Below, one piece after another: positions 10,039 to 28,416 of a DNA stretch of 64,000 bases. The position numbers and the translations under genes are program-made. The notes under the pieces were generated by a model. That model made no database searches. It had not been told where the DNA came from and saw nothing but the letters and a program-made list of their open reading frames with translations. Source of the stretch: Fimbriimonadaceae bacterium (GTDB taxonomy: Bacteria > Armatimonadota > Fimbriimonadia > Fimbriimonadales > Fimbriimonadaceae). Position 1 is the stretch's first letter. The number at the start of each line of letters is the position of its first letter. The stretch is from NCBI GenBank assembly GCA_023957775.1, contig JAMLGR010000003.1, forward strand, positions 62,001 to 126,000, in the 5' to 3' direction.

Positions 10039-10069
10039 AGCGGGGGAAACCTCCTGAAGAGGTGGTAGT

Positions 10070-11094
<1,025 letters not shown>

Positions 11095-11107
11095 TTATGA
11101 GGGCTGA

Positions 11108-11488
11108 TCAGCCCTCGCGCTTCCAGATCGGCACATCAGCCTTGATGCGGTCGATCAGAAACTGACAGCAGGCGAAGGCTTCGGCACGATGCGCGCAGGC
11201 CGCGACGGTGACGACCGCGATCTCGCCTGGGAGGAGCGTGCCTGTACGGTGCGCCAGCGCCACGCGCCCGTTCCACCGCCGCATCGCCTCCTCGCCGAGA
11301 ATCCGCATCTGGGCGAGCGCCATCTCCTTGTAGGCCTCGTATTCGAGCTGAACGGTCGGGGCGCCTTCGGTGACCGAACGCACCTCGCCGCAAAAGACGA
11401 CCACCCCGCCCAGCGAGGGGTCCTCGACGCTTCGCCGCAGCGCCTCGGGATCGAGCGGGCTCTCCGTCAACAAGATGTGGGGTTCCAC
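11108..11488 (-). CDS. moaE: Molybdopterin synthase catalytic subunit MoaE
   Basis: A 126-residue MoaE-like protein, somewhat short for a family near 140-150. Matching segments are GGVVVFCGEVRSVTEG, LEYEAYKEMALAQM, VALAHRTGTLLPGEIAVVTV and the C-terminal RIKADVPIWKREG, which includes the catalytic lysine. With MoaD it inserts sulfur into precursor Z in molybdenum-cofactor synthesis. No other moa gene is present nearby. The GTG start at 11488 is the best-supported choice; the longer reading has a low-complexity N-terminus that overlaps the divergent GAF gene. Confidence 0.9.
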   Translation of the reverse strand: MEPHILLTESPLDPEALRRSVEDPSLGGVVVFCGEVRSVTEGAPTVQLEYEAYKEMALAQMRILGEEAMRRWNGRVALAHRTGTLLPGEIAVVTVAACAHRAEAFACCQFLIDRIKADVPIWKREG

Positions 11489-11541
11489 CAGGCGGTTGTA
11501 CCCGCCGCACACGGCGCTGCCATGGGTGCCAAACTCTTGGC

Positions 11542-11940
11542 GTGGTGGAGCTTGAGACAGCCGAGGCGTTGGTGGCGTCGCTTTCGCGATCGCCGCTGCG
11601 GGGCAGGGCATTGCGGCAGGAGGCGATGGGGAGACTCGACGCCTTGGAAGGGTACGACTGGAGCGGGATCTACCGTCTCGAAGGCGACGCATTGGTGCTG
11701 GATGCCTACGTGGGCGCGCCGACGGACCACGGCCGAATTCCCGTGGGACGGGGTGTCTGCGGCACAGCGGTGTCCGAGGATCGTAACCAGGTGGTCACCG
11801 ATGTGCGCGAGCTCGCGAACTACCTCGCGTGCAGCGTCTCGACCCGTTCCGAAATCGTCGTGCTGATTCGGGACGGGGCCAAGATCCTCGGCCAGATCGA
11901 CATCGACGGAGCACCGGGTCGGGTGGTTCGATGGGCTTGA
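11542..11940 (+). CDS. GAF-domain protein related to free methionine-(R)-sulfoxide reductase
   Basis: A 132-residue single GAF domain close to the fRMsr (MsrC) family: YDWSGIYRLEGDALVLDAYVG, GRIPVGRGVCGTAVSE, VVTDVRELANYLACSVSTRSEIVV and ILGQIDIDG. In active fRMsr three cysteines take part. The GVCG and ACS cysteines are here, but the first one, normally just before the RIP strand, is absent (PTDHGRIP). It may still reduce free methionine sulfoxide with one resolving cysteine, or act only as a ligand sensor. It is divergent from moaE, and the IS element begins 52 nt after its stop. Confidence 0.8.
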   Translation: MVELETAEALVASLSRSPLRGRALRQEAMGRLDALEGYDWSGIYRLEGDALVLDAYVGAPTDHGRIPVGRGVCGTAVSEDRNQVVTDVRELANYLACSVSTRSEIVVLIRDGAKILGQIDIDGAPGRVVRWA

Positions 11941-11992
11941 CGAGAGGATGCTGTGGGCGTTGGCGGCTTCTCGCGGACCGCTGGGACACTAA

Positions 11993-13295
11993 CAGGGTGC
12001 TGAAGAAGCGCCGGTTTTCGGCTGTCTGGATCGGCGCGGGGTCTTTGGCCGCCCGGTATCGCCCGCCATGGGGCGCAGGCGGCGGGTTTTTCGTCGTTTT
12101 GGGAGTGTCTTTGGCCTTTCAGGGGCCTCCAAACGGCCTCCTCAGGTCGTTTGGAGCGTGATGTTCGCCATCCGGACGAGATTGTACGCTGCCGCTCCGA
12201 GCAGGAAGATCCATGCCACCTTGCGCGTGCCCCGGTACCTGAGCTTGTAGAAACCTCCGACAGTTTTCTCCCAGCCGAAGATCTCCTCCACGCGCTTGCG
12301 GATCTTCTGGCTCGTCTTGTAGCCCTCGTGCCTCGTCGTTCGGCCGTCGATGCGGCTGTGCTTGTCCTTGCGCGCCACGTGGGGCTTGATGTCCCGCGAG
12401 CGGCAGCCCTCGACGAACTTCGTCTGGTCGTAGAGCTTGTCCGCGCCTACCGTCGAGCCGCAGCCCACGTTGTCCTCGAGCATCCTGAGCGCCGCATCGA
12501 CTTCATAGTTGCCCTCGACCGTCGTAACCGCAGTGTCCACCACCAGTCCGTTGCGGTTCTCCATCAGAACGTGGCCCGCGTGGCTGAGCTTGGCTTCCTT
12601 GCCCCAGCCTTTGCGGGCCATCCGCGCATCGGGGTCGGTCGTGCTCTGGTGCGTCTGGTTCGTGCGGCTCTCCCCCTTGAAGTCCACTTCGGGATTCGAG
12701 CCCGTGCCGCCTTCGGGCGGATCGGGGGGATCCTTCTTGGGCTTGAAGCTCTTGTGGGAGGCCCACGCCTCCAACAGGGTGCCGTCCACCGTGAAGTGGT
12801 CCTCGCTCATCAGCCGGCGCATCCGCGCGTGGGACTTCACCCCCTCGAAGAACAGCCGCGCAACTTCGCCTTCGAGCAACCGTTCCCGGTTCTTGGAGAA
12901 CGTCGAGGCGTCCCAGACCGCTTCGTCAGCGTCCAGACCCACGAACCAGCGGAAGAGCATGTTGTAGCGGATGTGCTCCATCAGGCGCCGCTCGCTGGGA
13001 ATGGAGTACAGCACCATCAGCACCAGGGCGCGGAGCTGCTTCTCCGGTGCGATCGAAGGGCGTCCGATCGAGGAGTACATCGCCCGGAACTCGGATTCGC
13101 AGTCGGCCAGAACCGCGTCCGTGACACGCTTGACCTCGCGAAGCTTGTGGTCCGCAGCCACGAACATCTCCAGGTTGATCGTCGCGACAAGCGACGGTTG
13201 AAGCTGGTCTTCGCCCTTCATACTTGTAAAGACGAACCAGCCCTGTCAGACGAATTTAATGGATAGCAAAGAATGGTGCCTTTTTCAGCACCCTG
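11993..13295 (-). mobile_element. IS5-type insertion sequence, complete, 1,303 bp
   Basis: The ends carry 16-nt inverted repeats with one mismatch: left CAGGGTGCTGAAGAAG from 11993, right (reverse complement) CAGGGTGCTGAAAAAG ending at 13295. One intact transposase gene lies inside on the minus strand. Flanks are CTAA (11989-11992) on the left and CTAG (13296-13299) on the right, fitting the CTAR target of IS5-like elements, though the two copies differ at the last base. A hairpin (arms 12128-12135 and 12148-12155) overlaps the transposase stop. The right end abuts the stop codon of the phosphoglycerate-mutase-like gene. Confidence 0.88.
12142..13221 (-). CDS. IS5-family transposase
   Basis: A 359-residue DDE transposase and the only gene of the element. 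The N-terminal DUF772 region (about 20-135) includes EKQLRALVLMVLYSIPSERR and DEAVWDASTFSKNRERL. The catalytic core shows DHFTVDGTLLEAW, a first Asp; VGADKLYD, a second Asp; and a C-terminal Glu-containing segment RVEEIFGWEKTVGGFYKLR. A Lys/Pro/Gly-rich insert (about 160-190) separates the first two parts. The frame is intact, so the element may be active. Confidence 0.94.
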   Translation of the reverse strand: MKGEDQLQPSLVATINLEMFVAADHKLREVKRVTDAVLADCESEFRAMYSSIGRPSIAPEKQLRALVLMVLYSIPSERRLMEHIRYNMLFRWFVGLDADEAVWDASTFSKNRERLLEGEVARLFFEGVKSHARMRRLMSEDHFTVDGTLLEAWASHKSFKPKKDPPDPPEGGTGSNPEVDFKGESRTNQTHQSTTDPDARMARKGWGKEAKLSHAGHVLMENRNGLVVDTAVTTVEGNYEVDAALRMLEDNVGCGSTVGADKLYDQTKFVEGCRSRDIKPHVARKDKHSRIDGRTTRHEGYKTSQKIRKRVEEIFGWEKTVGGFYKLRYRGTRKVAWIFLLGAAAYNLVRMANITLQTT

Positions 13296-14402
13296 CTAGG
13301 GGGCGACAGCTTGCCGAACGGCCTGCCATGCGGTGCGTTCCGGTGCCTTGGCCTCCTCCAAAAGCCGTTCGTCGAACGGCCAGGGCCCCTCGACGGGAGG
13401 ACCCGATTCGGCGACCATGCCCACGCCCCGCCCGACCAGGCCTGGGGCGAACACCGCGACCTGGGTGTCCCCGGCGCGCAACTTGGCCAGGATCGGCTCG
13501 AGAAGCTCGGCATCGAGTCGCGCGAGGAGCCACTCCGCCTCCTCCCACCGCTCCTCCCGCCGCAGGGCTTCGAACGCATCGATCACGATCACGATCGGCG
13601 AGCGTTCCAGCGCGCTTTCCGCGAGCAGAAGCATCGGAATGGCGATGCCTTTCCCGGAGATCGTGCGGTCGCCATGCGTGCACCGGGCCAGCCGCGCCAA
13701 TCCTTCCAGCCGCAGCGACCGGCTCTCCAAATGAAGGCGCTCGCCACGCTCCAGCCAGAGGTTGGGTACGGGCTCTCGAAAGCCCTGGCCCCACGGCCAG
13801 AGCACGTTGAGGGGGAGCAACCCTTCGTCCACGCGCCGCAGGTTGAACTCTTCCTCGGCGAGCAGGTTGACCGAGTCGTCGACAAAGCGCCTCAAGAGGG
13901 GCTCTCCATCGCCGACCGGCAGGGAGTCATGCCACTCCTTCCCCGCGCAAGATTCCGGCGAACGCGTTTCCATCTCGATCGAGCCGTTCTCCCAAACGAG
14001 GCCGTGGCGAAGCCCATCGCCTTGGACCCAGCGCAGCTTGGAGGTCTCCAAACGCGCGGCCAGTTGGTGAATGCGATCGAGGGCCGCGCTTCCCGGTCCG
14101 GCGTCCGGAACGGCGAGCACCCCGTCCTTCAACGCCATTACATCGACTTGGAACTGAACCGACCGTTCGGGCGGGTCCACCCCGAAGGCCGCGACGGCCA
14201 GGGGGCCGGGCCGCAGCGCCACCGTGGAGGGGTCCATGCCAAACCACGCGGCCTCCGGCGTCTCGCTTGGAATGGGCTCGGCCAAAGCGAAGACCTCGCT
14301 GCGGGCGCCCAACTCCCCGAGGGCGGGCCCGGGATTTCGCAGCAAACTCTCCCCGCCCGGACTTCCACAGAGCCCAGGAACCACCAGCACGATGCGCCGC
14401 AT
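13296..14402 (-). CDS. Divergent phosphoglycerate-mutase-like (ApgM-type) protein
   Basis: A 368-residue protein resembling the archaeal-type cofactor-independent phosphoglycerate mutase in layout: MRRIVLVVPGLCG at the N-terminus, AAWFGMDPSTVALRPGPLAVAAFGVD, a conserved-looking LLPLNVLWPWGQG (PAN..L.G.G in the family) and a C-terminal alkaline-phosphatase-like segment. The usual metal ligands at the N-terminus (DGxGDR) are replaced by VPGLCGSP, so it may be inactive or altered. The ATG at 14402 overlaps the purF stop by one base, so it is co-transcribed with purF. Its TAG stop lies in the IS target site, so the original 3' end cannot be known. Confidence 0.6.
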   Translation of the reverse strand: MRRIVLVVPGLCGSPGGESLLRNPGPALGELGARSEVFALAEPIPSETPEAAWFGMDPSTVALRPGPLAVAAFGVDPPERSVQFQVDVMALKDGVLAVPDAGPGSAALDRIHQLAARLETSKLRWVQGDGLRHGLVWENGSIEMETRSPESCAGKEWHDSLPVGDGEPLLRRFVDDSVNLLAEEEFNLRRVDEGLLPLNVLWPWGQGFREPVPNLWLERGERLHLESRSLRLEGLARLARCTHGDRTISGKGIAIPMLLLAESALERSPIVIVIDAFEALRREERWEEAEWLLARLDAELLEPILAKLRAGDTQVAVFAPGLVGRGVGMVAESGPPVEGPWPFDERLLEEAKAPERTAWQAVRQAVAP

Positions 14403-15889
14403 CACTCGAGATCCGCGTCGGGATCGAGGAGCAGCGGCTGCCCGCTCGCCACCGCCGCAAACTGGCCGACGTCGGGAGGCGTGTCGAAAGCGTCTTTGCG
14501 AAGATCCGCAGGCACGGGGATCGGGTACTCGCCGTTGAAGCACGCGAGGCAGAACTGATCCTTCCCGCGTCCGACCGCCTCGACGGCGCCGTCGATGGAG
14601 AGGTAGCCCAAGGAGCTGGCTCCGACATGCGCCCGGATCTCGTCGATGGTCATCCGGGCGGCGGCAAGTTCACCGCGCGAGCACATGTCGATGCCATAGA
14701 AGCACGGCCACTTGATCGGAGGGGCCGTGATGCGCACGTGCACCTCTTTGGCGCCCGATTCGAACAGCAGGCGAACGATCTGGCGCGTCGTCGTCGCGCG
14801 CACGATCGAGTCGTCCACGAGGACGAGGCGCATGCCTCGGATGTGCTCGACGAGCGGCGTGAGCTTGAGGCGGACTCCCAATTCGCGCAACCGCTGGTCG
14901 GGGTGGATGAACGTGCGGTGGATGTACCGGCTCTTCATCATCCCTTCGCGGTAGGGAATGCCCGTTTCGCGGCTGTAGCCCAGCGCCGCGGGAATGCCGG
15001 AGTCCGGCACGGGAATCACGACGTCGGCCTCCACGGGGTGCTCTCGCGCGAGGTGCTCGCCCATCCGCTCACGCGCGCTGTAGAGCAGCGTGTCGTACAT
15101 GATCGAGTCGGGTCGGGCGAAGTAGATGAACTCGAAGAGGCACATCGCGTGGCGGCGCGGCGGATGGCCTTGCGCGAAGCGCATGCCCTCCGCGTCGATC
15201 ACGACCATCTCCCCGGGGTCCAACTCCCGTTCGACCGCTCCATCGACGGGTCCGAACGCGCAGCTTTCACTTGCGATCATGTAGCCGGGGCCGACGCTGC
15301 CGGCCACCAGGGGCCGGATGCCGGAGGGGTCGCGGAATCCGATGATCCAGTGCGGGGTCAGGACGGCCACGCTGTACGCGCCCTCGATGCGCTTCATCGC
15401 TTCGCGCACCGCCACCTCGGGACCCTCCTCGAGGTGGCGTACGAGGAGCCGCGCGATGATCTCGCTGTCGCTCGTCGAGTCGAAGTGCTCGCCCTCGGCC
15501 TCCATCTCCTGGCGAAGTCGGCCCGTGTTGATCAGGTTGCCGTTGTGCGCCACCGCGATGTCGCCCACCAGGCTTTGGCAGTAGATGGGTTGGGCGTTGC
15601 GGAGAACCGACGCGCCGGTGGTCGAGTACCGGTTGTGGCCCACCGCCATGTGGCCGGGCATCGAGTCGAGGATCTCCTCTTTGAAGACCTGGCTCACCAG
15701 GCCCATGTCCTTGTGCATCCGAACCCTCTCGCCGTCGCTGACGGCGATGCCGGCGGACTCTTGGCCGCGATGTTGAAGCGCGAAGAGGCCGAAGAACGTG
15801 ACGACGCCCGCCTGCCTGTCCGGCGTGTAGACGCCGAGGACTCCACACTCTTCTTTCGGGTGATCGTCGTGTCCGGGATGGTCGGTCAC
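14402..15889 (-). CDS. purF: Amidophosphoribosyltransferase
   Basis: A 495-residue PurF, the committed step of purine synthesis: PRPP plus glutamine gives 5-phosphoribosylamine. Residues 1-14 are a propeptide; Cys15 in EECGVLG becomes the N-terminal nucleophile of the Ntn glutaminase domain, supported by HNRYSTTG and AHNGNL. The PRTase loop is VLVDDSIVRATT. The cysteines in CSRG and CLACFNGEYP mark the Bacillus-type 4Fe-4S form. The start is GTG at 15889, 7 nt after a TATACT, with no Shine-Dalgarno, so a leaderless message is likely. The mutase-like gene follows with a one-base overlap. Confidence 0.97.
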   Translation of the reverse strand: MTDHPGHDDHPKEECGVLGVYTPDRQAGVVTFFGLFALQHRGQESAGIAVSDGERVRMHKDMGLVSQVFKEEILDSMPGHMAVGHNRYSTTGASVLRNAQPIYCQSLVGDIAVAHNGNLINTGRLRQEMEAEGEHFDSTSDSEIIARLLVRHLEEGPEVAVREAMKRIEGAYSVAVLTPHWIIGFRDPSGIRPLVAGSVGPGYMIASESCAFGPVDGAVERELDPGEMVVIDAEGMRFAQGHPPRRHAMCLFEFIYFARPDSIMYDTLLYSARERMGEHLAREHPVEADVVIPVPDSGIPAALGYSRETGIPYREGMMKSRYIHRTFIHPDQRLRELGVRLKLTPLVEHIRGMRLVLVDDSIVRATTTRQIVRLLFESGAKEVHVRITAPPIKWPCFYGIDMCSRGELAAARMTIDEIRAHVGASSLGYLSIDGAVEAVGRGKDQFCLACFNGEYPIPVPADLRKDAFDTPPDVGQFAAVASGQPLLLDPDADLE

Positions 15890-15896
15890 GGCTCGG

Positions 15897-15902
15897 AGTA
15901 TA
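15897..15902 (-). promoter_or_regulatory. purF: Extended -10 element of purF (leaderless start)
   Basis: TATACT on the minus strand ends 7 nt before the purF GTG, so transcription should begin at or next to the start codon. No good -35 is seen at the usual distance. Confidence 0.45.
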
Positions 15903-15957
15903 CGGCATGGACCTTCGGGGCGGTTTGCGCCATGATGGGATTGATGCGGAGTTAGCG

Positions 15958-18627
15958 ATGGGTCGACTGCCGACGGGGACCGTTACCCTTCTCATGACGG
16001 ACGTGGAGCGCAGCACCCTCTTGTGGGAGGAGGCGCCCGAGGCGATGAACGACGCGATCGCCCGCCACGACGAAATCGTCCGCCAGGCGGTCGAACGCTA
16101 CCAAGGCCACCTGTTGAAAGCCCGCGGCGAGGGGGACAGCCTTTTCGCGGTCTTTGCCTCGGCAGCCGAAGCCGTTGCGGCCGCCGCCGACCTGCAAGAC
16201 GCGCTCGAGGTCGAATCCTGGCCCGAGGGCGCCCCGATCCGTGTCCGCGCGGCCCTGCACACGGGTGAGGCGTTTGCACGCGAAGGCGACTACTACGGCT
16301 CCACGGTCAACCGTTGCGCGCGCCTGCGAGCGTGCGCCCACGGGGGCCAAACCCTGCTCACGAACAGCACCCGAGTGCTGGTGGGCGAGCGACTCCCCAC
16401 CGGAGCCACCCTTCTCGATCTCGACGTCCACCGGCTGAAAGACCTCCTTCGTCCCGAGCATGTCTTCGAGCTGCAGAGGGCGGGTCAGACGGATGCGTTT
16501 CCGCCGATCCGTTCTCTCGCGCCCTCACGGCACAACCTCCCGGTCCAACTCACGAGTTTCGTGGGCCGCGAGCGCGAGGTCGCCGAGGTCTGCGCACTTC
16601 TGGGACGAGCCCGTCTGGTGACGTTGCTCGGCCCTGGGGGAGCCGGCAAGACGCGTCTCAGCCTCCAAGTCGCGGCCGAGTCGATCGACCAGTTCGCCGA
16701 CGGAGTGTGGCAGGTGGACCTCTCATCGGTCGCCGACGGGTCGCTGGTCGCCGACGCGTTCGCGTCCGCTTTCGGCGTCTCCAATCGCGTCGGCGCGGGC
16801 GCCCTCGAACGGGTGACGGAGCACCTCGAGCCGCTTCAGCTCCTGATCGTGCTGGACAACTGCGAACATCTGACCGCCTCCGTCGCGCCGATCGTCTCCG
16901 ATATCCTCACCCGATGCGGCGGCGCGACGGTCCTCGCCACGAGCCGTCAGCGGTTGGGAGTGGCCGGCGAGTTCACCATCCGAGTCGGTCCCCTTCGCCT
17001 CCCCAAGCGCGACGAGGCGGAAGAGCCCGAATCCGCGCTCGCCTTCGAGAGCATCCGGCTGTTCTGCGACCGCGCCGAGGCGCACGATGCCGCCTTTCGG
17101 CTCGGCCTCGGCAACGTGGGGGCCGTCGCGGAGCTGTGCCGGCGGCTGGACGGGATTCCTTTGGCGATCGAGTTGATCGCCTCCAATGTCGGCGAGGTCA
17201 GCCCGAAGCAGATCCTCGACCGGTGGACCGACACGTTTCCCACCCTTGCCTCGGACGATTCGCAGGCGGCCGAGCGACACCAGACGCTGCGCAAATCGAT
17301 CGACTGGAGCACAAATCGTCTGCCCGCCAACGAGCAGGAGCTTTTTGCCCGGCTGTCCGTCTTCTCGGGCGGATGGACGCTGGACGCCTCGGAAGCGGTG
17401 TGCGCGGACGACGGCCTGCCGCGCGACAGCATTCTGCCCCTTCTGCAGCGCCTGGTTCGGGTCTCCCTGGTCCACGTCGAGGAGACGTTGGACGGGGAGC
17501 ATCGCTATCGGTTCTTGGAGACCGTCCGGCAGTACGCGGCCGAGCGGGGCGCCAGCGACAGCGAACCGCTGCAGGCGCGTCACTTCGCGTGGTGCCTCGG
17601 CCTGGCGCGCGAGGCGGATCCCAAGCTCGGGGGTCCGGAACAGGCGGTTTGGCTCGACCGTCTCGAGCCCGAGCGGGACAATTTCCGTCGCGCACTCGAT
17701 TGGGCCGTCCGCGGGCGGCACTCCGAGGCGATCAGCCTCGCGCATGCGCTTCGGCGGCTCTGGCTGCGCAGGGGGCCGTTGCGCGAAGGCCTGCGATGGA
17801 TGGAGGCCGCCCTCGAGGCATGCCCCGAGGCGCAGCGACCTCTGCGAGCGCACACTCTGAACGCCATGGGGGCGTTCTACGACCTGGACGGCAACCCCTC
17901 CGTCGGGCGCAAATGGTACGAGCAGAGCCTGGTCCTTTGGCGTGAGGAGGGAGACCTCGCCCAGATCGCCGCCCTGCTCACGAATCTGGCGATCGTCGCC
18001 AGCCGCGAGGCGAGATCCGAAGACGCCCACACGCTGTTCGCCGAAGGGATCGAGGCGTACCGCAGCTTGGGAGACGAGGGAGGGAGGGCGAGCGCCGAGA
18101 TGAACCTCGGGATGTGCCTGGTGAACGAGGGACGCTTTGAGGAGGCCGTCGAGCAGTTCGACCGCTCCATCCCGGTCTTGCGCGCCCAGGGGATCCAGGC
18201 GAGGTTGGGGATCGCCTTGGGAGACCGGGCCGTTGCGAGGAAGCGGTTGGGACGCGAAGAGGAGTCCGTGGAGGATCTCGTCGAGGCTTTCGGCGTGTGG
18301 CGCGCCGTGGGCGATCGCCTCGCCTCCGCGCGAGGGCTGCTTCTCCTCGCCGAGATCGCACTCGCACGGGACCTCGATCGCCTTGCCGCGGAGATCCTTG
18401 GTGCGGAGACGACCATGATCGAACTTGCCGGAGTCGACGACAGCGCCACCGAAGGTTTGAAGCGGTTGGAGCTGACCGAGATGCTTCGGGAGCGACTCGG
18501 AGCGCAGTTCGACCAACACGTTCGCGCGGGGGCGTCACGCGACGGCCACGAGGCGTTCGCCTTCGGGCAGGCGGCGGTGGACCAGGTGCGCAAAGGTCGC
18601 GACCAGGCGATTCCCTCCGACGGTTGA
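15958..18627 (+). CDS. Class III nucleotide cyclase-STAND ATPase-TPR regulator
   Basis: An 889-residue cytoplasmic protein. The N-terminal class III adenylate/guanylate cyclase domain (about 1-165) shows LMTDVERSTLLW, GEGDSLFAVF and GSTVNRCARLRA, with both metal-binding aspartates and the Asn/Arg pair. A STAND/NB-ARC-like ATPase follows, with a P-loop (LGPGGAGKTRLS, about 223-234), LLIVLDNCEH and ATSRQRLG. From about 590 to the end come TPR-type helices. Related proteins often end in a LuxR helix-turn-helix; none is visible here, so it signals by nucleotide synthesis or protein contact. The ATG at 15958 is preferred over an upstream reading that overlaps the purF promoter. Confidence 0.88.
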   Translation: MGRLPTGTVTLLMTDVERSTLLWEEAPEAMNDAIARHDEIVRQAVERYQGHLLKARGEGDSLFAVFASAAEAVAAAADLQDALEVESWPEGAPIRVRAALHTGEAFAREGDYYGSTVNRCARLRACAHGGQTLLTNSTRVLVGERLPTGATLLDLDVHRLKDLLRPEHVFELQRAGQTDAFPPIRSLAPSRHNLPVQLTSFVGREREVAEVCALLGRARLVTLLGPGGAGKTRLSLQVAAESIDQFADGVWQVDLSSVADGSLVADAFASAFGVSNRVGAGALERVTEHLEPLQLLIVLDNCEHLTASVAPIVSDILTRCGGATVLATSRQRLGVAGEFTIRVGPLRLPKRDEAEEPESALAFESIRLFCDRAEAHDAAFRLGLGNVGAVAELCRRLDGIPLAIELIASNVGEVSPKQILDRWTDTFPTLASDDSQAAERHQTLRKSIDWSTNRLPANEQELFARLSVFSGGWTLDASEAVCADDGLPRDSILPLLQRLVRVSLVHVEETLDGEHRYRFLETVRQYAAERGASDSEPLQARHFAWCLGLAREADPKLGGPEQAVWLDRLEPERDNFRRALDWAVRGRHSEAISLAHALRRLWLRRGPLREGLRWMEAALEACPEAQRPLRAHTLNAMGAFYDLDGNPSVGRKWYEQSLVLWREEGDLAQIAALLTNLAIVASREARSEDAHTLFAEGIEAYRSLGDEGGRASAEMNLGMCLVNEGRFEEAVEQFDRSIPVLRAQGIQARLGIALGDRAVARKRLGREEESVEDLVEAFGVWRAVGDRLASARGLLLLAEIALARDLDRLAAEILGAETTMIELAGVDDSATEGLKRLELTEMLRERLGAQFDQHVRAGASRDGHEAFAFGQAAVDQVRKGRDQAIPSDG

Positions 18628-18652
18628 CATCTCGCCGAGAATGGGCTTTACT
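18624..18652 (+). promoter_or_regulatory. Promoter of the first GFDPII protein gene
   Basis: TTGACA (18624-18629) overlaps the stop codon of the cyclase gene; a 17-nt spacer leads to TTTACT (18647-18652). The ATG at 18660 falls at the predicted start point, so the message would be leaderless. Confidence 0.55.
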
Positions 18653-18659
18653 CTCGACG

Positions 18660-19085
18660 ATGCCGAAACCCGTCTCCCCTCTTTTCCGTGCCGCCGTTCT
18701 CACGACTTGCGCCTGGCTGGCCTTGTTCGGTGCCCCGCTGACCGCCAGCGGTCGGATTCCACCTCAAGGCTTTGACCCGATCATCGCGATGGATCGCTAC
18801 TACTGGCCTTCGCAAAACGCCAATATCGTGATCGACCTCAGCCCGGACAAGTGCCCGAACCTCGTCGCCGGCCGGACCTACACGGTCAACCTCATCCTCC
18901 CCGCCGGGTGGTTGAACGCCCCGAAACCCTTCGAGTTGAAGGGTGGCGAGAAGGTGACCAAGACGGTGCGGACCGGCACCGAAACGGGTTCGTACCTGGT
19001 GCGCGCGCTCGTGCTGGAAGGCAAAACGCAGAAGTGCGAGGGCCGCTTCACGACCCAAGTGGCTCCGATCGTCGTCGGCGGTTGA
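18660..19085 (+). CDS. Small secreted protein with GFDPII motif, copy 1
   Basis: A 141-residue protein of unknown function with a signal peptide (about 1-30, after MPKPVSPLFR). The mature part opens with GFDPIIAMDRYYW (motif at 37-42), then a compact beta-rich domain with CPNLVAGRTYTVNLILPAGW. Two cysteines (in DKCPN and KCEG) could form a disulfide. The next gene encodes a paralog sharing the GFDPII motif and the pattern P-x-(L/I)-V-x-G-x-TY-x-V. I know of no named family. A consensus-like promoter sits directly before the ATG. Confidence 0.72.
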   Translation: MPKPVSPLFRAAVLTTCAWLALFGAPLTASGRIPPQGFDPIIAMDRYYWPSQNANIVIDLSPDKCPNLVAGRTYTVNLILPAGWLNAPKPFELKGGEKVTKTVRTGTETGSYLVRALVLEGKTQKCEGRFTTQVAPIVVGG

Positions 19086-19096
19086 AAGAGGTGGGA

Positions 19097-19125
19097 TTGA
19101 CAACGGGCCTTTCAGGCACTATGCT
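19097..19125 (+). promoter_or_regulatory. Near-perfect sigma-70 promoter of the second GFDPII gene
   Basis: TTGACA (19097-19102), exactly 17 nt, and TATGCT (19120-19125). Transcription should start near 19132, three bases before the GTG at 19135. The very short leader leaves no room for a ribosome-binding site. Confidence 0.7.
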
Positions 19126-19134
19126 TTGCGTACT

Positions 19135-19656
19135 GTGAAGCGAACCCGGTTTCGATGCGTGGCGGCCGTCGCACTCCTGGGAGTGGCGATGGCGATCACC
19201 GTGGGGTTCTCCTCCCCACGGCAGTCCAGGGCGAATCCGCAGACGCGCCCCTTGCCTGCGACGGGCTTCGATCCGATTATCGTGATGGGATCCCGCCTCA
19301 CGGTCGAGGACCGCTCCGGCACGCCGGGCATCCTGACCGGCTTTGATCCGATCATCGGCATGAACCCGAAGGCGAACAAGGAGACGAGCATCACGGTCTC
19401 GCTCGACCCTGGTCAATCCCCAGAGATCGTCAGTGGCGAAACCTATCGGGTCGAGGTCGTTCTCACGGGCGACTGGAGCCCTGCGGGCTGCACCTTCACC
19501 GCGAAAGCCGGTTACGGCGCGAAGTACGCATTCTACGCGACGCCGAACGAAGAGCAGAACGCCACGGTGACCGCAACGACGTTCCGAAAAGTGGATGGCG
19601 AGTGGAAGAAGGTCGACGTGAGAACGACAGCGTTCCAAGTCAACGAAGCCTACTAA
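19135..19656 (+). CDS. Small secreted protein with two GFDPII motifs, copy 2
   Basis: A 173-residue paralog of the preceding gene product. It has a signal peptide (KRTRFRCVAAVALLGVAMA, then a cut near residue 33), two GFDPII motifs at about residues 44-49 and 69-74, and a domain containing SPEIVSGETYRVEVVLTGDW that aligns with CPNLVAGRTYTVNLILPAGW in copy 1. Function is unknown; the repeat of a short exposed motif suggests a binding or sorting tag. The GTG at 19135 gives a normal signal peptide; the TTG at 19126 lies inside the promoter region and is unlikely to start translation. Its stop lies 16 nt before the convergent rpmB stop. Confidence 0.75.
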   Translation: MKRTRFRCVAAVALLGVAMAITVGFSSPRQSRANPQTRPLPATGFDPIIVMGSRLTVEDRSGTPGILTGFDPIIGMNPKANKETSITVSLDPGQSPEIVSGETYRVEVVLTGDWSPAGCTFTAKAGYGAKYAFYATPNEEQNATVTATTFRKVDGEWKKVDVRTTAFQVNEAY

Positions 19657-19671
19657 GCCCCAGGGCCCAAC

Positions 19672-19941
19672 CTACACGCCGTAGCCGGGTTTCTTCAGCC
19701 AGGCTTTCGGGATCGGCTTCAGTCCGGAAACCACCGCAGAGAACTCGGGGCTCTTGAGGACGGACGTGGAGACGACGAGCTTGACCTTGCCGCTCGGGGT
19801 CTGGATCCGGACGACCTGCAGGTTCGGGAGCTGCAATCGGTTCTTCTTCGGCGCCCGAAACTTCCACGCGCCGGAGTGCCGGTGCCGAATGTGCTTCGCG
19901 TTGTTCGCCTTCTTGCCGCTTACCTGACAGACTCTCGCCAT
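19672..19941 (-). CDS. rpmB: Ribosomal protein bL28
   Basis: An 89-residue bL28 of the large ribosomal subunit. It matches through MARVCQVSGKKANNAKHIRH, RHSGAWKFRAPKKNRLQLPN and the basic middle. Length is at the upper end of the family because of a short C-terminal extension ending KPGYGV. The ATG at 19941 gives the standard N-terminus; two extra residues are possible from a codon upstream. It stands as a single gene, and a TATCCT hexamer about 40 nt upstream could be its -10 box. Confidence 0.94.
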   Translation of the reverse strand: MARVCQVSGKKANNAKHIRHRHSGAWKFRAPKKNRLQLPNLQVVRIQTPSGKVKLVVSTSVLKSPEFSAVVSGLKPIPKAWLKKPGYGV

Positions 19942-20039
19942 TTCCAAAAACCTCGTGCGCCGCTGGGCGCGATCTGAGAGGATACTCGAACGGCGCGGCG
20001 CGGCGCAACCAAAGGCCGGTTCGTCGTACTATGGAGTCG

Positions 20040-20627
20040 ATGGACGTGCTGACCCGCGCCTCGATAGGGATTCGGCTTCCTGAGACCGTGGTCGAGCGGC
20101 TGGCCGAACTCCAGGCCGACCTGAAGCGCCGCGCCGGAGCCGAGAACGCGCGGTGGTTCGCGCCCACGGAGTTCGTGTTGACCTTGGCCACCCTCGGCGA
20201 GCTCTCCGTCGCCCAGATGGTGCGCGTCCAGGCAACGCTGCCCCCCGCCGTGGCCGGATTCGGGACCTTCCGCCTCGCTCTGGAGGGGGTCGGAGGGTCT
20301 CCCAACGCCACTCAGCCCCGCGTCGTTTGGGTTGGAGTCGGGGAAGGTGCCCCGCGCCTCGGGGAGCTCCATCGCGTGGTGGAGGCGGCGTTGGGACCGT
20401 TGATGTTGCCTCGCGAATCCCGCCCGCTGATGGCCCACGTCCCGATCGGGCGGCTTCGCAGCGATTCGGAGCAAGCGCGGAGCGCGCTGGGGCGCACGTT
20501 GCGGCACGCGACCACCGAACCTCTGGCGAGCTTCGACGTGGGCTCGGTATCGCTGCTCAAGAGCGAGGTTGGGCCCACAGGCCCCACCCTGGTCGAGATC
20601 GGCCAATGGCCCTTGGGAAGGCCGTAA
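20040..20627 (+). CDS. 2'-5' RNA ligase/cyclic phosphodiesterase-like (ThpR family), degenerate active site
   Basis: A 195-residue protein with ThpR length and layout: SIGIRLPETVVERLAELQ, RWFAPTEFVLTLATLGEL, PRVVWVGVGEG and SVSLLKSEVGPTGPTL. The family uses two H-x-T-x motifs. Here the first reads V-L-T-L and the second H-V-P-I, so one catalytic histidine and one threonine are missing. RNA 2',3'-cyclic phosphodiesterase or ligase activity is therefore doubtful. A TACTAT box (20027-20032) lies 7 nt before the ATG at 20040, favouring this start over the ATG at 20031. The stop codon is supplied by the first unit of the adjoining 63-bp repeat. Confidence 0.78.
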   Translation: MDVLTRASIGIRLPETVVERLAELQADLKRRAGAENARWFAPTEFVLTLATLGELSVAQMVRVQATLPPAVAGFGTFRLALEGVGGSPNATQPRVVWVGVGEGAPRLGELHRVVEAALGPLMLPRESRPLMAHVPIGRLRSDSEQARSALGRTLRHATTEPLASFDVGSVSLLKSEVGPTGPTLVEIGQWPLGRP

Positions 20628-20866
20628 CTTACGCCCGTCCAGCGGGCGTGGCACCTTCCCTCGTGCCGGGGTCCTGGTGGAAGGCCGTAACGCACGCCCG
20701 TCCAGCGGGCGTGGCACCTTCCCTCGTGCCGGGGCCCTTGTGGGAGGCCGTAGCGCACGCCCGTCCAGCGGGCGTGGCACTTTCCCTCGTGCCGGGGTCC
20801 TTCTGGGAGGCCGTAGCGCACGCCCGTCCAGCGGGCGTGGCACCTTCCCTCGTGCCGGGGCCCTTG
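20615..20866. repeat. Four tandem copies of a 63-bp unit containing a palindrome
   Basis: Copies start at 20615, 20678, 20741 and 20804, with a few substitutions and the start of a fifth copy at 20867. Each holds the palindrome ACGCCCG-TCCAG-CGGGCGT (cores at 20631, 20694, 20757 and 20820), followed by a conserved CCTCGTGCCGGG block. The same palindrome occurs singly elsewhere in this window. The array fills the gap between the ThpR-like gene and asd. There are no unique spacers, so it is not CRISPR. Confidence 0.92.
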
Positions 20867-20885
20867 TGAAGGCCGCGGTACGGAC

Positions 20886-21893
20886 CTACCTCCCGAGAGC
20901 CGTCTCGGCGATCTGGACGGCGTTCAAGGCGGCCCCTTTGAGCAGTTGGTCACCGCTGAGGAACAGACAGATCGCCGACGGGTGGCTCGGATCGCGCCGG
21001 ATCCGCCCCACCAGCACCTCGTCTCTCTCCGATGCCTCGAGCGGCATGGGAAAGTGGTTCCCCTCCCGATCGTCCACCACCCGCACCCCCGGGCTCTCGC
21101 CCAACACCCGCCGCACGTCGTCCACCGACGGCGCCTCGCCTTCGAACTCGACCGTCACGGACTCGCTGTGCGCGCGGAGCACGGGCACGCGGATGCAGGT
21201 GACGTTGATCGCCAGCGTGGGATCGTCGAGTATCTTGCGGCTCTCGGCGATGACCTTGGCCTCCTCCTCGTTCATGCCATCCGCGTCGATCGGGGTGTTG
21301 TGGCTGAACAGGTTGAAGGCGTACGGGTGGGGCAACACCTTGGGCTGGGGAGCTTCCCCGTCCAGCACCGCGCGCGTCTGGTCGACCAGCTCCCTCATGG
21401 CCGCCGCTCCCGCCCCCGACGCGCTTTGATACGTGCTGACCACGAGCCTGCGCAAGCGTCCCAGCCGACGCAGGGGCGCTACCCCCATCAGAAGGATGAT
21501 CGCGCTGCAGTTCGGAACCGCCACCAGTCGCGTTTCCGGCGTCAGAAGCTCCCCGTTGATCTCGGGAACCACCAGCGGGACCGACGGGTCCATTCGGAAA
21601 GCGCTCGAGTTGTCCACCACGAGCGCCCCGGCCGCCGTGGCGATCGGGGCATAGATCTTGGACCGAGCGGCGCCCGCGCTGAAGAAGGCGACGTCGACAC
21701 CCTCGAAGGCCCGGTCGTGGATGGCTCGGACCTCCACGTCCTCCCCTCGGAAAGGAACGACCGCGCCGGCGGAGCGTTCGCTTGCATAGAGCAGCAGTTC
21801 GGACGTGGCGAAACCACGCTTCTCGAAGAGCTTGGGAAACTCCCTTCCCACCGCCCCCGTCGCTCCCAATACCGCAACACGTCGTCCAGCCAT
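20886..21893 (-). CDS. asd: Aspartate-semialdehyde dehydrogenase
   Basis: A 335-residue enzyme that reduces aspartyl phosphate to aspartate semialdehyde, the branch point to lysine/diaminopimelate, threonine and methionine. It has the NADP-binding GATGAVGREF, the active-site cysteine in VAVPNCSAI, STYQSASGAG and the late RVPVLRAHSESVTVEF. Length and order are standard. The ATG at 21893 gives the usual start; an in-frame ATG at 21902 adds three residues. The gene stands alone; its 3' end faces the 63-bp repeat array. Confidence 0.96.
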   Translation of the reverse strand: MAGRRVAVLGATGAVGREFPKLFEKRGFATSELLLYASERSAGAVVPFRGEDVEVRAIHDRAFEGVDVAFFSAGAARSKIYAPIATAAGALVVDNSSAFRMDPSVPLVVPEINGELLTPETRLVAVPNCSAIILLMGVAPLRRLGRLRRLVVSTYQSASGAGAAAMRELVDQTRAVLDGEAPQPKVLPHPYAFNLFSHNTPIDADGMNEEEAKVIAESRKILDDPTLAINVTCIRVPVLRAHSESVTVEFEGEAPSVDDVRRVLGESPGVRVVDDREGNHFPMPLEASERDEVLVGRIRRDPSHPSAICLFLSGDQLLKGAALNAVQIAETALGR

Positions 21894-21987
21894 CGCACGC
21901 ATTGATACCCGAGATCCATTCGACCGACGATGCCTCCTCACGCGTCTTGTAAACTGATTCCAGGCCGTCGGAGTCGGTTGGAGCAAA

Positions 21988-22875
21988 TTGGAGAAGATCG
22001 CGCTAAGCCTGACCAAGCTTCGAGAGCAAGGCGACTTCCGTTTCACCCGAAGAAGTGATTGCATCGCGGTCAACGCCTACGGACTGGCGGGGCGTTGCGA
22101 ACTCTCCGCAAACGCCCAAATCGACATCCCACAGGGCGTCTTTCTCCTCGTCATCAACGTCGACGGGACCCTTCTTCTCCGGTGCCGATCCGAGGATCGC
22201 TGGACGATCGCGACGAAGGGCACCGTGGCGTTCCTCCCGGGGCCGCGCAACTTGATCGCCTCGTTCGGTCGCGGCGACCACGAGACCGACTTGATCTGGT
22301 GGAGCGAGTCCCTGACGCCTCAGATAGGGGCCTGGTTGAAGGCCGATCCCACGCTTCGAACTCCCAACCGGGTGGTCAACTGCCGGTCGATTTCACCGAC
22401 GTTCGACGAGATCGTGGGGCGCATCGAACAAGCGTTGGAGGAGCGCTCCCACCGTCAGGAGATGCTGTTTCTCTCGGCGGTCTACGAGCTGGTTCCCTGC
22501 CTTGCGAACGGCACGCACGAGCTGCGCCTGGCGCCGTTGCCGAACCACCTCCCTGCCCAACTGCGGGACATCGCCAGGCAGGTTGCCGACAAGCCCCATT
22601 TTCCTTGGGCCATCCGCGACGCTGCGGCCCTCGCGGGCTACTCCCCCTTTCACTTCTCGAGGGTCTTCAAGCAGCTTGTGGGATACGGCTTCCACCAGTA
22701 CGTGGATCGATGCCGCACCGAGCTTGCGGCCCGGAAGCTGTGCAGTTCCAAGGACACGATCGAGGAGGTCGCGCGCCAGTGCGGCTTCGGCACCTCGCAT
22801 TCGCTTCGCGATTCCATTCGGGAGTACCTCGGCGTCACGCCCACCGAATTGCGCACGACCAACGACGCGGAGTAG
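21988..22875 (+). CDS. AraC-family transcriptional regulator
   Basis: A 295-residue regulator. The N-terminal part (about 1-170) is a divergent cupin-like sensor without a clear family. The C-terminal double helix-turn-helix (about 190-290) has DAAALAGYSPFHFSRVFKQ and IEEVARQCGFGTSHSLRDS, then YLGVTPTELR, typical of AraC. The start is TTG at 21988; other in-frame starts are weak. It is divergent from asd and convergent with trpB, so its target cannot be read from context. Confidence 0.88.
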   Translation: MEKIALSLTKLREQGDFRFTRRSDCIAVNAYGLAGRCELSANAQIDIPQGVFLLVINVDGTLLLRCRSEDRWTIATKGTVAFLPGPRNLIASFGRGDHETDLIWWSESLTPQIGAWLKADPTLRTPNRVVNCRSISPTFDEIVGRIEQALEERSHRQEMLFLSAVYELVPCLANGTHELRLAPLPNHLPAQLRDIARQVADKPHFPWAIRDAAALAGYSPFHFSRVFKQLVGYGFHQYVDRCRTELAARKLCSSKDTIEEVARQCGFGTSHSLRDSIREYLGVTPTELRTTNDAE

Positions 22876-22887
22876 TCGGACTTGCGT

Positions 22888-24069
22888 TCAGAGCGCAAAG
22901 CGGGCCGCCGCCGTCTCCATGTCCTTGTCCCCGCGGCCGCTCAGGTTGACGAGGATCCGCGTTCCGGGGGGGAACGCGTTGGGGCGCCGAAGGGGTGCCA
23001 GCGCGTGCGCGGACTCGAACGCGGGAATGATCCCCTCGCGGGAGGCCAACCATCGGAAGGCCTCGAGGGCCTCGTCGTCGGTGGCGGACTCGTACCCCAC
23101 CCGCCCGGTGTCCTTCAGATAGGAGTGCTCCGCACCCACCCCGGGGTAATCCAACCCTGCCGACACCGAGTGCGTTCCGATCACCTGCCCGTCCTCGTCC
23201 TGCATGAGGTAGCTGTACGAGCCGTGGAGGACGCCCGGCGAGCCGGAGGACAACGGTGCGGCGTGCTCGCCGGTCTCCAGTCCTTGTCCGCCAGCCTCGA
23301 CACCGATCAACTTCACCGAAGGATCGTCGAGAAAACCGTGGAAGAAACCGATCGCGTTCGAGCCCCCTCCCACGCAGGCGATGCCGACTTCGGGCAACGA
23401 GCCGAAGCGTTCGAGATACTGTCGGCGCGACTCCTTGCCGATCACCGATTGGAACTCGCGAACGAGGTAGGGATAGGGGTGGGGTCCCGCGGCGGTTCCA
23501 ATGATGTAGTGCGTGTTCCCCACGTGGGTCACCCAGTCGCGCATCGCTTCGTTCAGCGCATCCTTCAGGGTGCGGGTTCCGCTGGATACGGGGATCACGC
23601 GCGCGCCCATCAGCTTCATGCGGAACACGTTGAGCTGTTGCCGCGCACAATCCTCCTCGCCCATGTACACCTCGCACTCCAGCCCGAAGAGCGCGCACAT
23701 CGTGGCGGTGGCGACGCCGTGCTGCCCTGCACCCGTTTCCGCGATGATCCGCTTCTTCCCCATGCGCATGGCGAGCAGGCACTGGCCCAGGGCGTTGTTG
23801 ATCTTGTGGGCTCCCGTGTGGCACAGGTCCTCCCGCTTGAGGCAGATGTCGTACCCCGTTTCCGACGACAGTCGCCGGCACTCGGTGATCGGCGTCGGAC
23901 GCCCCACGTAATCGCGGGCAAGCCGGTCGAACTCGGCACGAAACTCCGGGTCGGCCCAAGCCCGTTCGAACTCCCCCTCCAGCTCTTCCAAGGCGGGGAT
24001 CAGGGTCTCGGGGACGTACCGTCCTCCATAAGCTCCAAAGCGGCCGTGGGAGTCGGGGGCAGTGGACAT
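22888..24069 (-). CDS. trpB: Tryptophan synthase beta chain
   Basis: A 393-residue TrpB that joins indole and serine to make tryptophan with PLP. Key parts are GRYVPETL, the PLP lysine in [25 protein letters not shown], and the phosphate loop [14 protein letters not shown]. Length is typical of the TrpB1 group that pairs with TrpA. trpA is not adjacent, and no other trp gene lies in the window. A CACAAT box lies 8 nt before the ATG, so the start may be leaderless. Confidence 0.97.
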
Positions 24070-24097
24070 CGGCTTCTATTGTGGCGCACGGGCGGTC

Positions 24098-24775
24098 TCA
24101 GCGAAGCGCCTCGGGATCGGTCGAGGCGACCATCAACGCTCCACCCGCCACCATGGCCGGCAAGAGCAACAGATTGACCAGCGGAACGAGACTCACGATC
24201 CCGCAAACCAGCGCAAATCCGGCCCATCCCCGGCAGCGGAACACACGGCCGAACTGGGCGCCAAACGCCAGCCCGCGCTTGAGGAATGCGCAGGAGGTGT
24301 AGTCGAGCAACCCCAACCAGCCAACCAGCAGCACGGCGACCGGAACGCACCACCAACCGAACAACAGCGCCAGCATGGCGATCGCGGCGGAGAAGCAGGC
24401 CCGCGAGACCGTGTCCCGCACGATCAGGCTGACCGGCAACTTCTTTCGAACGAGAGTCGAGCCCGCCCGCACCTCAATCTCGTCGCTCAGGCGGTCCCAG
24501 AGGAACGAACTCAGAACGCCCGCGAGCGCGACGTAAAGCGTTCCTCCCAGCCAGATCCAGACCGCTGCAAACACGCCAAAGCCCAGGAGGCCGGCGAGGA
24601 CCGAGGCGAATCCAAGCCCTTCCAACCACGCCGCGATCCAAGGGACCAGCAGGAAGCCACCCATCACGAGAAGCGCAGCGAAGAGGGCCCCGGCTTGCAG
24701 GAGAGGCTTCCAAGCAAAAGCCCGCAGGCGCGCATCGCCAAACACGAGCGCCAACCCCCGCAAAAAATGCCCCAT
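24098..24775 (-). CDS. EI24/CysZ-like membrane protein
   Basis: A 225-residue integral membrane protein with about six hydrophobic segments. The layout (FLRGLALVFGDARLRAFAWKPLL at the start, LLDYTSCAFLKRGLAFGAQFG in the C-terminal half) fits the EI24 domain family that includes sulfate transporter CysZ. Substrate is not known; no sulfate-assimilation genes are nearby. Its start lies 33 nt from the heptamer array on the far side of which the pilin cluster ends. Confidence 0.8.
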   Translation of the reverse strand: MGHFLRGLALVFGDARLRAFAWKPLLQAGALFAALLVMGGFLLVPWIAAWLEGLGFASVLAGLLGFGVFAAVWIWLGGTLYVALAGVLSSFLWDRLSDEIEVRAGSTLVRKKLPVSLIVRDTVSRACFSAAIAMLALLFGWWCVPVAVLLVGWLGLLDYTSCAFLKRGLAFGAQFGRVFRCRGWAGFALVCGIVSLVPLVNLLLLPAMVAGGALMVASTDPEALR

Positions 24776-24808
24776 GCCCTAACCAACGGCGCAGAGCGCA
24801 TCCAGGTT

Positions 24809-24948
24809 GCCCAAGGCCCACGGCCTAAGGCCCAAGGCCCAAGGCCCAATGCCCAAGGCCCAAGGCCCAAGGCCAAATGCCCAAGGCCCAAGGCCCAAGG
24901 CCAAATGCCCAAGGCCCAAGGCCTAAGGCCCAAGGCCCAAGGCCCAAC
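24809..24948. repeat. Exact 20 x 7-bp tandem array (GCCCAAG)
   Basis: Twenty consecutive 7-bp units, 140 bp with no length change. Thirteen units read GCCCAAG and the rest differ by one or two substitutions (GCCCACG, GCCTAAG, GCCCAAT, GCCAAAT, GCCCAAC). Units 7-10 and 11-14 are an identical 28-bp block, so the array grew by block duplication. It begins one base after the stop of the small membrane gene. The unit is not a multiple of three and it is not coding. Confidence 0.95.
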
Positions 24949-24949
24949 C

Positions 24950-25411
24950 CTACCATTCCACGTGCGTCTTGGCGGGTGCGGGCTCCGGGATGCTCTTGAC
25001 CACCCACTGCCGCAACCCCATCACCACGCCGAACCCCAGCGCGAGGAACAGCAGGCCCCAACCGAACGTCTTGGCCGGGCTTCCCGTGCTCTGTTTCAGA
25101 TGGGTCGAGGCTTCCGCAAGCACCTTGGCGGCGTTGGGGTCGCTGTGGGTCGTTCCCTGCGCAGAGAGGGCGATGACACCCGCGGCGGCATCGTCCGTCT
25201 TGGCCCCCGGCGGCACATAGATCTCGGTGTCTCGAGGCACCATGCCCACCCGGCCGAAGGTCCCTTGGAGCGCTTGCTGCTTGGCCACCTGGTCTTGGGA
25301 CTGCTCGGGGGTCGCCTTCTGGCCTTTGCGCGGGTCGACGATGCTTCCCCAGGCGGTTCCCACCACCAAGAGGGCGCACAGGGCTCCGAGAATCGCTTGT
25401 GTCAGTTTCAT
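24950..25411 (-). CDS. Hypothetical exported protein of the pilin cluster
   Basis: A 153-residue protein of unknown function, the last gene of the pilin cluster. It has a signal peptide (residues 1-22, MKLTQAILGALCALLVVGTA), a polar middle with Gln-rich and Ala-rich stretches, and one membrane helix near the C-terminus (TFGWGLLFLALGFGVVMGL). An AGGAGA Shine-Dalgarno lies before the ATG. It starts 9 nt after the stop of the PilX-like gene, so it may be a structural or anchoring accessory of the pseudopilus. Confidence 0.75.
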   Translation of the reverse strand: MKLTQAILGALCALLVVGTAWGSIVDPRKGQKATPEQSQDQVAKQQALQGTFGRVGMVPRDTEIYVPPGAKTDDAAAGVIALSAQGTTHSDPNAAKVLAEASTHLKQSTGSPAKTFGWGLLFLALGFGVVMGLRQWVVKSIPEPAPAKTHVEW

Positions 25412-25420
25412 GTCCGTCTC

Positions 25421-27259
25421 CTAGTACTGGGTCAAGCCCCGATCGTGCCAGGTGCTCCGCAACAGGACCGGGCTTCGCGGAAGGGCAAGGTCGATGAGGG
25501 GTTGGGCCGTCAACGTTCGTTCCCGGATGCGCGAGTCGTAGTTCATCTCCATGGGAATGCTGAACACGACCATCGCCTCGTCCTTGCTGATCAGGGTGCC
25601 GTTGAATTTGACGCCACCGCCGCCCGTGCCGATGTTTCCACCACCGACGAAGTTCGTGTAGAGCACCGCGTCGATCTGGTTCACGCCTTCGGCGATGCTG
25701 TTCATGGTCGCGTCGGGGATCACGCTCTTGTAGCGCGGCTTGCCGGACGCGTCGATCTGCAGGGCGTTGAACGCCGGGATCACGTTGCCGTAGTCGTCAA
25801 GTCTCGGTTTCGTAAACGGCGGGGTCATGTAAGCCAGCGGGTAGGGGTTGCCGAACGAGTTGGGATTGCCCATCATTACGGAGCCGCGCGCCGCAAGCGC
25901 CAACATGTCCTTCTTCTCGTTTGCGTTGTCGATCGCCTGCATGTCGCTTCCGCGGAAATCGGGCGGCGTTTTGTACCGGACGGACCCCACCACGTGCACG
26001 TTGCGGCCCGCGTAGATCGTGCCCTGGCCCTGGACGTAGCCTTTGATGACGCAGTCCTGCGTGAACGTGACCGGCCCGTGGATCAACACGGGGTGCGCCG
26101 ACGTTCCGACGAGCACCGCGGAACCGTCGAGGTTGCCGGCGGAGGTGACGGTGTCGTAGGTGCTTGTGCTCGTGTTCCAGACCTTGACCCAAGCCCCTTG
26201 GCCCGCAAACGGATTGGCGGACCCATCCCCGTAGGTGGCCTTCGAGTCCACATAGTTCGTGCTGATGTTCTGGTAGTACTCGAGGTCGCTCAGATCGGGC
26301 ATGACGACCTCTTCGGTCGGGCTCACGTCGAGCATCGTGGTGGTCGCGGCACCCGTATTCGGGCGCTGCCAAGCCCTCTTGCCGGTCGCGTCCATGATCG
26401 CCGCGCCGCTGATCCGGTTGTTCACGATCGTGCCGTCGGACTCGAAGATGAAGTCGCGCCACTGCTCGTAGGTGGAGGACCCCTTGGCGCCGTGAACCGC
26501 CGGATTGTACGCCTGGCGCCACCACTGCTGGCTGGCCGCGTTGGCCTGATACGTCGAATCGCTCCACTTCACGGGCGGAGTGTTCACGACGCCCGCGGCG
26601 CCGGGGATCAACTTGTCGTTGTTTGCCGCGACCAACGAGCCGTTGATCGTCGGCGACCCGTTGAGGATCGAGAAGTTTCCGTTGGCCCGCATGTCGCCGT
26701 TCACCGTCAGCCACGTGGGTTGGAATCCATCCATCCAGCCGTAGTTGTTCACGAAGTAGACGTAGTCGAAGACTTGGGATCGGCTGAGCTGGAACTCCGT
26801 TCCCGCATCCACCGTCTTTCGAGGCTCCCCCGCGTCGAGTTGGCCGTTGTTGTTGAGGTCCAGCCACCCGACCGAGCGCACGACCACCTGCCGTCGGTAG
26901 GGATCGCCTGGATTGGTGAAGGAGACCACGCCCGCGGCGAAACGGCCGACTCCCGGAATATCGGATGCGACGGCCACCATCGGCGACCCCTCTGAGGCGC
27001 CGGTGCAGGCCGCCTCCATCTGCGTGAACGTTTGCGTCACCTTGAAGGGCCGCCAAAGGTCGCGCAACACCGACTGGATGCCCGCCTCGCACAGGTGCGT
27101 CGTTTGAGCCTCCGTGGTCATCTTCTTCGAGAGCCGCACCGACGTGGTCGCGCTTCCGATGTAGGAGGAGGTCGCGACCGCGAGCAGCGTCATGACCAAG
27201 AAGGTGGTGGCGAGCGCCGCTCCGCGCCGTTTGTTTCGAGGGTGCCGGTTCCTTGGCAT
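25421..27259 (-). CDS. Large PilX-like pilus assembly protein with EF-hand-like loop
   Basis: A 612-residue protein with one N-terminal hydrophobic helix after a basic leader (RGAALATTFLVMTLLAVATSS), the PilX/GspK layout. The body is long, beta-rich and Gly/Asn-rich, and resembles the repetitive exported region of other large PilX-type proteins. A calcium-binding loop, DLNNNGQLDAGE, fits the EF-hand spacing at positions 1, 3, 5, 7, 9 and 12. It is probably a minor tip component of a type IV pilus or type II secretion pseudopilus. It starts 13 nt after the PilW-like stop. A precise family is not recognised. Confidence 0.82.
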   Translation of the reverse strand: MPRNRHPRNKRRGAALATTFLVMTLLAVATSSYIGSATTSVRLSKKMTTEAQTTHLCEAGIQSVLRDLWRPFKVTQTFTQMEAACTGASEGSPMVAVASDIPGVGRFAAGVVSFTNPGDPYRRQVVVRSVGWLDLNNNGQLDAGEPRKTVDAGTEFQLSRSQVFDYVYFVNNYGWMDGFQPTWLTVNGDMRANGNFSILNGSPTINGSLVAANNDKLIPGAAGVVNTPPVKWSDSTYQANAASQQWWRQAYNPAVHGAKGSSTYEQWRDFIFESDGTIVNNRISGAAIMDATGKRAWQRPNTGAATTTMLDVSPTEEVVMPDLSDLEYYQNISTNYVDSKATYGDGSANPFAGQGAWVKVWNTSTSTYDTVTSAGNLDGSAVLVGTSAHPVLIHGPVTFTQDCVIKGYVQGQGTIYAGRNVHVVGSVRYKTPPDFRGSDMQAIDNANEKKDMLALAARGSVMMGNPNSFGNPYPLAYMTPPFTKPRLDDYGNVIPAFNALQIDASGKPRYKSVIPDATMNSIAEGVNQIDAVLYTNFVGGGNIGTGGGGVKFNGTLISKDEAMVVFSIPMEMNYDSRIRERTLTAQPLIDLALPRSPVLLRSTWHDRGLTQY

Positions 27260-27272
27260 GGGGTTTCTCCGT

Positions 27273-28404: not shown

Positions 28405-28416
28405 AACGGGTGTTCG

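Follow-up and report, generated by a model that had tools for sequence, protein, structure and literature searches.

At positions 18624–19656 of the window, by which we mean the whole 64,000-nucleotide stretch that was analysed (G000:C3:62001-126000, from a genome of 3.5 Mb in 27 contigs whose genus is represented by one genome), two small open reading frames lie in tandem and encode proteins with the same short peptide, GFDPII. The locus raises the question of whether these are genuine, related and strongly expressed genes, and what the shared peptide could be for. A first reading made from the sequence alone had proposed a pair of secreted paralogs behind strong promoters, with a surface-binding or sorting role for the peptide.

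Coding status and predicted export

The first gene, here called P1, occupies positions 18660..19085 of the forward strand (ATG at 18660, stop codon included) and encodes a protein of 141 amino acids with one GFDPII. The second gene, P2, occupies positions 19135..19656 of the same strand (GTG at 19135, stop codon included) and encodes 173 amino acids with two copies of the peptide. An in-frame TTG at 19126 could serve as an alternative start of P2, which is unlikely because it lies too near the -10 box. Under a codon model trained on the same genome from a seed of four clear genes, the codon bias per codon was +0.17 for P1 and +0.14 for P2, while the other five frames were all negative. The GC3 values were 0.81 and 0.80, respectively. 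The presence of two tandem genes at this locus was thus confirmed by the open reading frames and by codon bias in exactly those frames. The search of positions 18000–20100 against Rfam found no elements.

The N-termini of both proteins, read by eye, consist of a basic n-region followed by a hydrophobic stretch, from which we infer that P1 and P2 are exported by means of a signal peptide via the general secretory route. Reading of the sequences revealed no lipobox cysteine at the end of either signal peptide: the LTTC of P1 is located early in the h-region and without a lipobox, and P2 has no suitable cysteine.

Paralogy and the GFDPII peptide

The comparison of P1 with P2 by BLASTP, performed as a single comparison, gave an E value of 8e-11 and 39% identity over 62 residues. 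After the removal of the motif and everything before it, the domains aligned with a local score of 81, where shuffled sequences averaged 26 (sd 4.6), and 0 of 5000 shuffles reached that score (p ~1e-7 to 2e-7). As the motif-free domains align far beyond shuffles, the pair shares a domain and not just a peptide, and on sequence comparison the paralogy of P1 and P2 is genuine irrespective of the motif.

The peptide extends to GFDPIIxM in each copy. In P1 it is GFDPIIAM (18768..18791, forward strand, with GFDPII at 18768-18785), located ~5 residues past the likely signal cleavage site. In P2 the motif search placed GFDPIIVM at 19264..19287 (GFDPII at 19264-19281) and GFDPIIGM at 19339..19362 (GFDPII at 19339-19356), both on the forward strand, the second copy 25 codons past the first. 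Paralogy and a shared GFDPII, with a single copy in P1 and two in P2, were therefore borne out by BLASTP, the shuffle test and the motif coordinates, and the position of the motif near the mature N-terminus holds for both proteins, as judged from the predicted cleavage site.

GFDPII and the following M are identical in all three copies, and the only amino-acid change falls at x (A, V or G). F, D and I are nevertheless encoded by differing codons, with 1–3 synonymous changes on ~5 synonymous sites between copies. Against this invariant motif, the domains of the two proteins are merely ~30–39% identical. Silent-only change among the copies is the pattern expected if the GFDPII peptide is selected, with the reservation that there are three copies from one genome and that recent copying could partly account for the pattern.

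In the 3.5 Mb genome, GFDPII is found once more besides the three copies in the pair, in an O-methyltransferase-like ORF of cytoplasmic type that is unrelated to P1 and P2. The relaxed search of the whole genome for GFDP followed by two hydrophobic residues gave matches in unrelated frames and no further exported protein. No further instance of the pattern GFDPI(I/V)xM turned up in 85 family genomes, and the literature search found GFDPII in no paper. A general sorting signal comparable to LPXTG or PEP-CTERM is unlikely, and this reading was rejected on the ground that GFDPII is absent from all other exported proteins of the genome. Of the two roles first suggested, sorting was consequently given up, while a putative cell-surface binding by P1 and P2 is possible.

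Search for relatives

No homologue of P1 or P2 was found when 60 relatives were searched with each protein, nor did a two-row profile search of 85 family and 291 phylum genomes reveal a relative of either. The GTDB species genomes likewise contained none in a pattern-seeded search, which reaches close relatives only. Viral contigs gave no relative of the pair, and the same was true of phages searched with P2 and of plasmids searched with P1. The best profile matches in the family genomes (E 0.0016–0.036) were attributed to chance, and the top ones that were checked corresponded to the N-terminal region of NuoL-like membrane proteins. One phylum-level match, on G046:C11, was rejected on account of internal stop codons. 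The analysis of synteny around rpmB (L28) in 29 relatives showed neither a GFDP protein nor a similar exported one.

Among the family collections, neither P1 nor P2 matched a Pfam family even with E values up to 10 allowed, and the matches in NCBIfam and PHROGs were at chance level only, which agrees with the initial view that the proteins belong to no named family. The PDB contained nothing significant for either protein. Because no relative was found in any genome or family collection searched, P1 and P2 are, on present sequences, orphan genes of this single-genome genus.

Promoters and leaderless transcription

The P1 promoter (18624..18652, forward strand) consists of TTGACA at 18624-18629, a 17-bp spacer and TTTACT at 18647-18652, with 7 nt to the ATG. 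It overlaps the stop codon of the upstream gene, which encodes a cyclase-STAND-TPR protein, and an alternative -10 box, TACTCT, lies 5 nt from the start. The P2 promoter (19097..19125, forward strand) consists of TTGACA at 19097-19102, a 17-bp spacer and TATGCT at 19120-19125, with 9 nt to the GTG, and it is the top promoter-like site in the consensus scan of positions 10000–29999. The P1 mRNA is predicted to be leaderless, and that of P2 to have a leader of ~0–4 nt. Each promoter scores 10/12 against the consensus. They had been called the best in the window, which is not exactly the case: the tRNA-Met (CAT) gene at 38826-38943 on the reverse strand has TTGACA-N18-CATAAT upstream (at 38943), which scores 11/12 and is the highest sigma-70 consensus match in the window.

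The abutment of promoter and start codon, noted in the first reading, turned out to be a genome-wide layout and nothing peculiar to the pair. Both P1 and P2 have a TANNNT-like box that ends ~5–9 nt upstream of the start. The survey of this layout covered the window together with L042-L061 (400 kb of this genome). Of the 394 genes called, 82, or about a fifth, had a TANNNT box 5–9 nt upstream of the start, as against 25 when a control distance was used. Most of these start-proximal boxes take the form GGTANNNT, in which A or C is preferred towards the end, and no -35 is discernible. The pattern GGTANNNT-N5-8-ATG was found 170 times genome-wide against 63 in reversed controls. Such counts vary across the phylum, from 707 against 199 in G116 and the above ratio in the present genome (G000) to values near 1:1 in many others.

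Leaderless genes with a start-proximal -10 have been described for Deinococcus-Thermus and Actinobacteria (PMC3160421, PMC12340547), and neither paper mentions the Armatimonadota, the phylum to which the present genome probably belongs (Fimbriimonadales-like) to judge from its gene content and relatives. The layout observed here is alike in having TANNNT a few nucleotides before the start, with no Shine-Dalgarno sequence needed. The pair departs from most leaderless starts of its own genome: its -35 is a consensus TTGACA and its -10 is not preceded by GG, whereas the others have GGTANNNT and no -35. The start-hugging layout therefore appears mostly ordinary here, and the consensus -35 is the unusual part. 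For the genome as a whole, the sequence evidence points to leaderless promoters with GGTANNNT beside the start being common and to the consensus -35 marking a rare subset of them.

The hexamer TTGACA is rare, with 24 occurrences in 464 kb on both strands. The full arrangement TTGACA-N16-18-TWNNNT-N4-10-RTG occurs at 5 sites in 3.5 Mb, against 2 in reversed controls, and two of the five are those of P1 and P2. Two other such sites precede real genes, one for a secreted DUF7948/SBBP protein and one for a 23S rRNA intervening-sequence protein. The former, at L107 (G000:C14 near 42805), shares with the pair the rare leaderless promoter of TTGACA-N17 type, and possibly constitutes with P1 and P2 a shared strongly expressed set.

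The tRNA-Met case suggests that TTGACA marks strong primary-sigma promoters in this genome. By contrast, the GGTANNNT box precedes two further tRNA genes in the 400 kb sampled, so that stable RNA genes can do without TTGACA. In Deinococcus radiodurans, expression rose when a start-proximal -10 was given an upstream -35 at 17 bp, but not at 22 bp (PMC12340547). Given the tRNA-Met gene with the same -35, the rarity of that element and the 17-bp effect in D. radiodurans, we infer with good reason that P1 and P2 are strongly expressed. The impression that the promoters look strong is likewise supported by the rare consensus -35.

Predicted fold and role of the N-terminal tail

The AlphaFold2 model of P2, for which P1 was the sole other alignment row, has seven strands within residues 73–170, with block pLDDT values of 54–89 over residues 91–170 and a mean of 53.9. 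The model is disordered before residue 84, and this stretch includes both motif copies. The predicted beta-sandwich domain of P2, with its strands at residues 83–170, corresponds to positions 19381..19644 of the forward strand. The domain of P1, probable from homology to that of P2, spans positions 18816..19064 of the same strand and contains cysteines in DKCPN and QKCEG. The AlphaFold2 model of P1 itself was poor (pLDDT 41). Foldseek searches of the PDB and of the viral library BFVD gave no match below E 1e-3 (best E 1.3e-2 and 4.2e-3, respectively), and the top, non-significant matches were assorted beta-rich proteins.

The pattern V-x-G-x-TY-x-V in the domain of the pair is typical of an early strand in Ig-like/FN3-like domains. 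The domain resembles such domains of secreted bacterial proteins in its length of ~95 residues and, in P2, in its seven predicted strands. It differs from them in having no match above noise in Pfam, NCBIfam or PHROGs and no significant fold match, and nothing comparable to the N-terminal GFDPIIxM tail is known. An Ig-like beta-sandwich in P1 and P2 is thus a low-confidence assignment, reasonable but unproven.

We propose that P1 and P2 are a lineage-restricted pair of tandem duplicates exported by a signal peptide, a reading that in our judgement stands about evenly between right and wrong. The mature proteins would consist of a short flexible N-terminal tail with one or two GFDPIIxM, followed by a single Ig-like domain of ~95 residues. 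Most likely, the tail would dock the proteins onto one specific partner outside the cytoplasm, and the second motif copy may let P2 bind twice or bridge. Each gene would be transcribed separately, as a leaderless mRNA, from a strong primary-sigma promoter that combines the usual start-proximal -10 with a consensus -35. A more far-reaching version is a long shot: here GFDPIIxM would be an extracellular motif of a new kind, used for docking or strand donation, through which P1 and P2 assemble into a two-component surface structure that is very highly expressed from unusually strong leaderless promoters and so far confined to a single genus.

The main rival to docking is that GFDPII is a structural element, the first (edge) strand of the sandwich, with the spare copy in P2 derived from a small internal duplication and both products being ordinary secreted single-domain proteins. 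We consider this credible, on the unlikely side. The AlphaFold2 model of P2 places a short strand at residues 73–76, within the second motif copy; moreover, the motif copy nearest to the domain directly precedes it in both proteins, and GFDPII contains hydrophobic residues. However, the confidence of the strand at 73–76 is very low (block pLDDT 36), the model of P1 shows no strand at the motif, and the first copy in P2 lies 25 residues further from the domain.

It is rather improbable that P1 and P2 are young or decaying orphans of little or no function, kept by chance, with the likeness of the motif due to recent duplication. The restriction to one genome and the empty searches described above would fit such an origin, but both genes show clear in-frame codon bias and carry rare consensus promoters, and their domains have diverged to ~39% at best while the motif has remained identical with silent changes. 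Donor-strand style self-assembly, in which the tail strand of one subunit would complete the sandwich of the next to form surface fibres or caps with the two-copy P2 as a linker, is very unlikely: by mere analogy with chaperone-usher pilins, a putative Ig-like sandwich is combined with a short hydrophobic extension at the mature N-terminus, and the FimA-bound type 1 pilus entry 9fw9_C is among the weak, non-significant Foldseek matches, but the pair differs from those pilins in having no sequence relationship to them, no significant fold match and no adjoining usher or chaperone gene among the locus neighbours examined.

The pair offers a compact and clear example of an orphan family of secreted proteins that was duplicated and kept a short peptide while the rest diverged. 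Should the docking tag prove real, it would add a new linear motif to those that act outside the cell; otherwise P1 and P2 would be an ordinary orphan pair.

Neighbouring genes and tandem repeats

Upstream of the pair, positions 15907-18627 encode a 906-aa protein with nucleotide-cyclase-like, STAND NTPase and TPR domains. This gene belongs to a group of at least five related loci of the genome, and related genes were found in 72 of 85 family genomes, with up to 14 matches per genome. A link of P1 and P2 to it was rejected, as that family is common and the pair is not. Downstream, the convergent gene encodes ribosomal protein L28, and a LigT-like phosphoesterase gene is also nearby.

The window also contains several tandem arrays. 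The one at 20608-20875 consists of 4.3 copies of a 63-bp unit and the one at 24809-24947 of ~20 copies of the 7-bp unit GCCCAAG; both are mostly intergenic. Further arrays are located at 44433-44559, 52214-52308 and 54016-54241.
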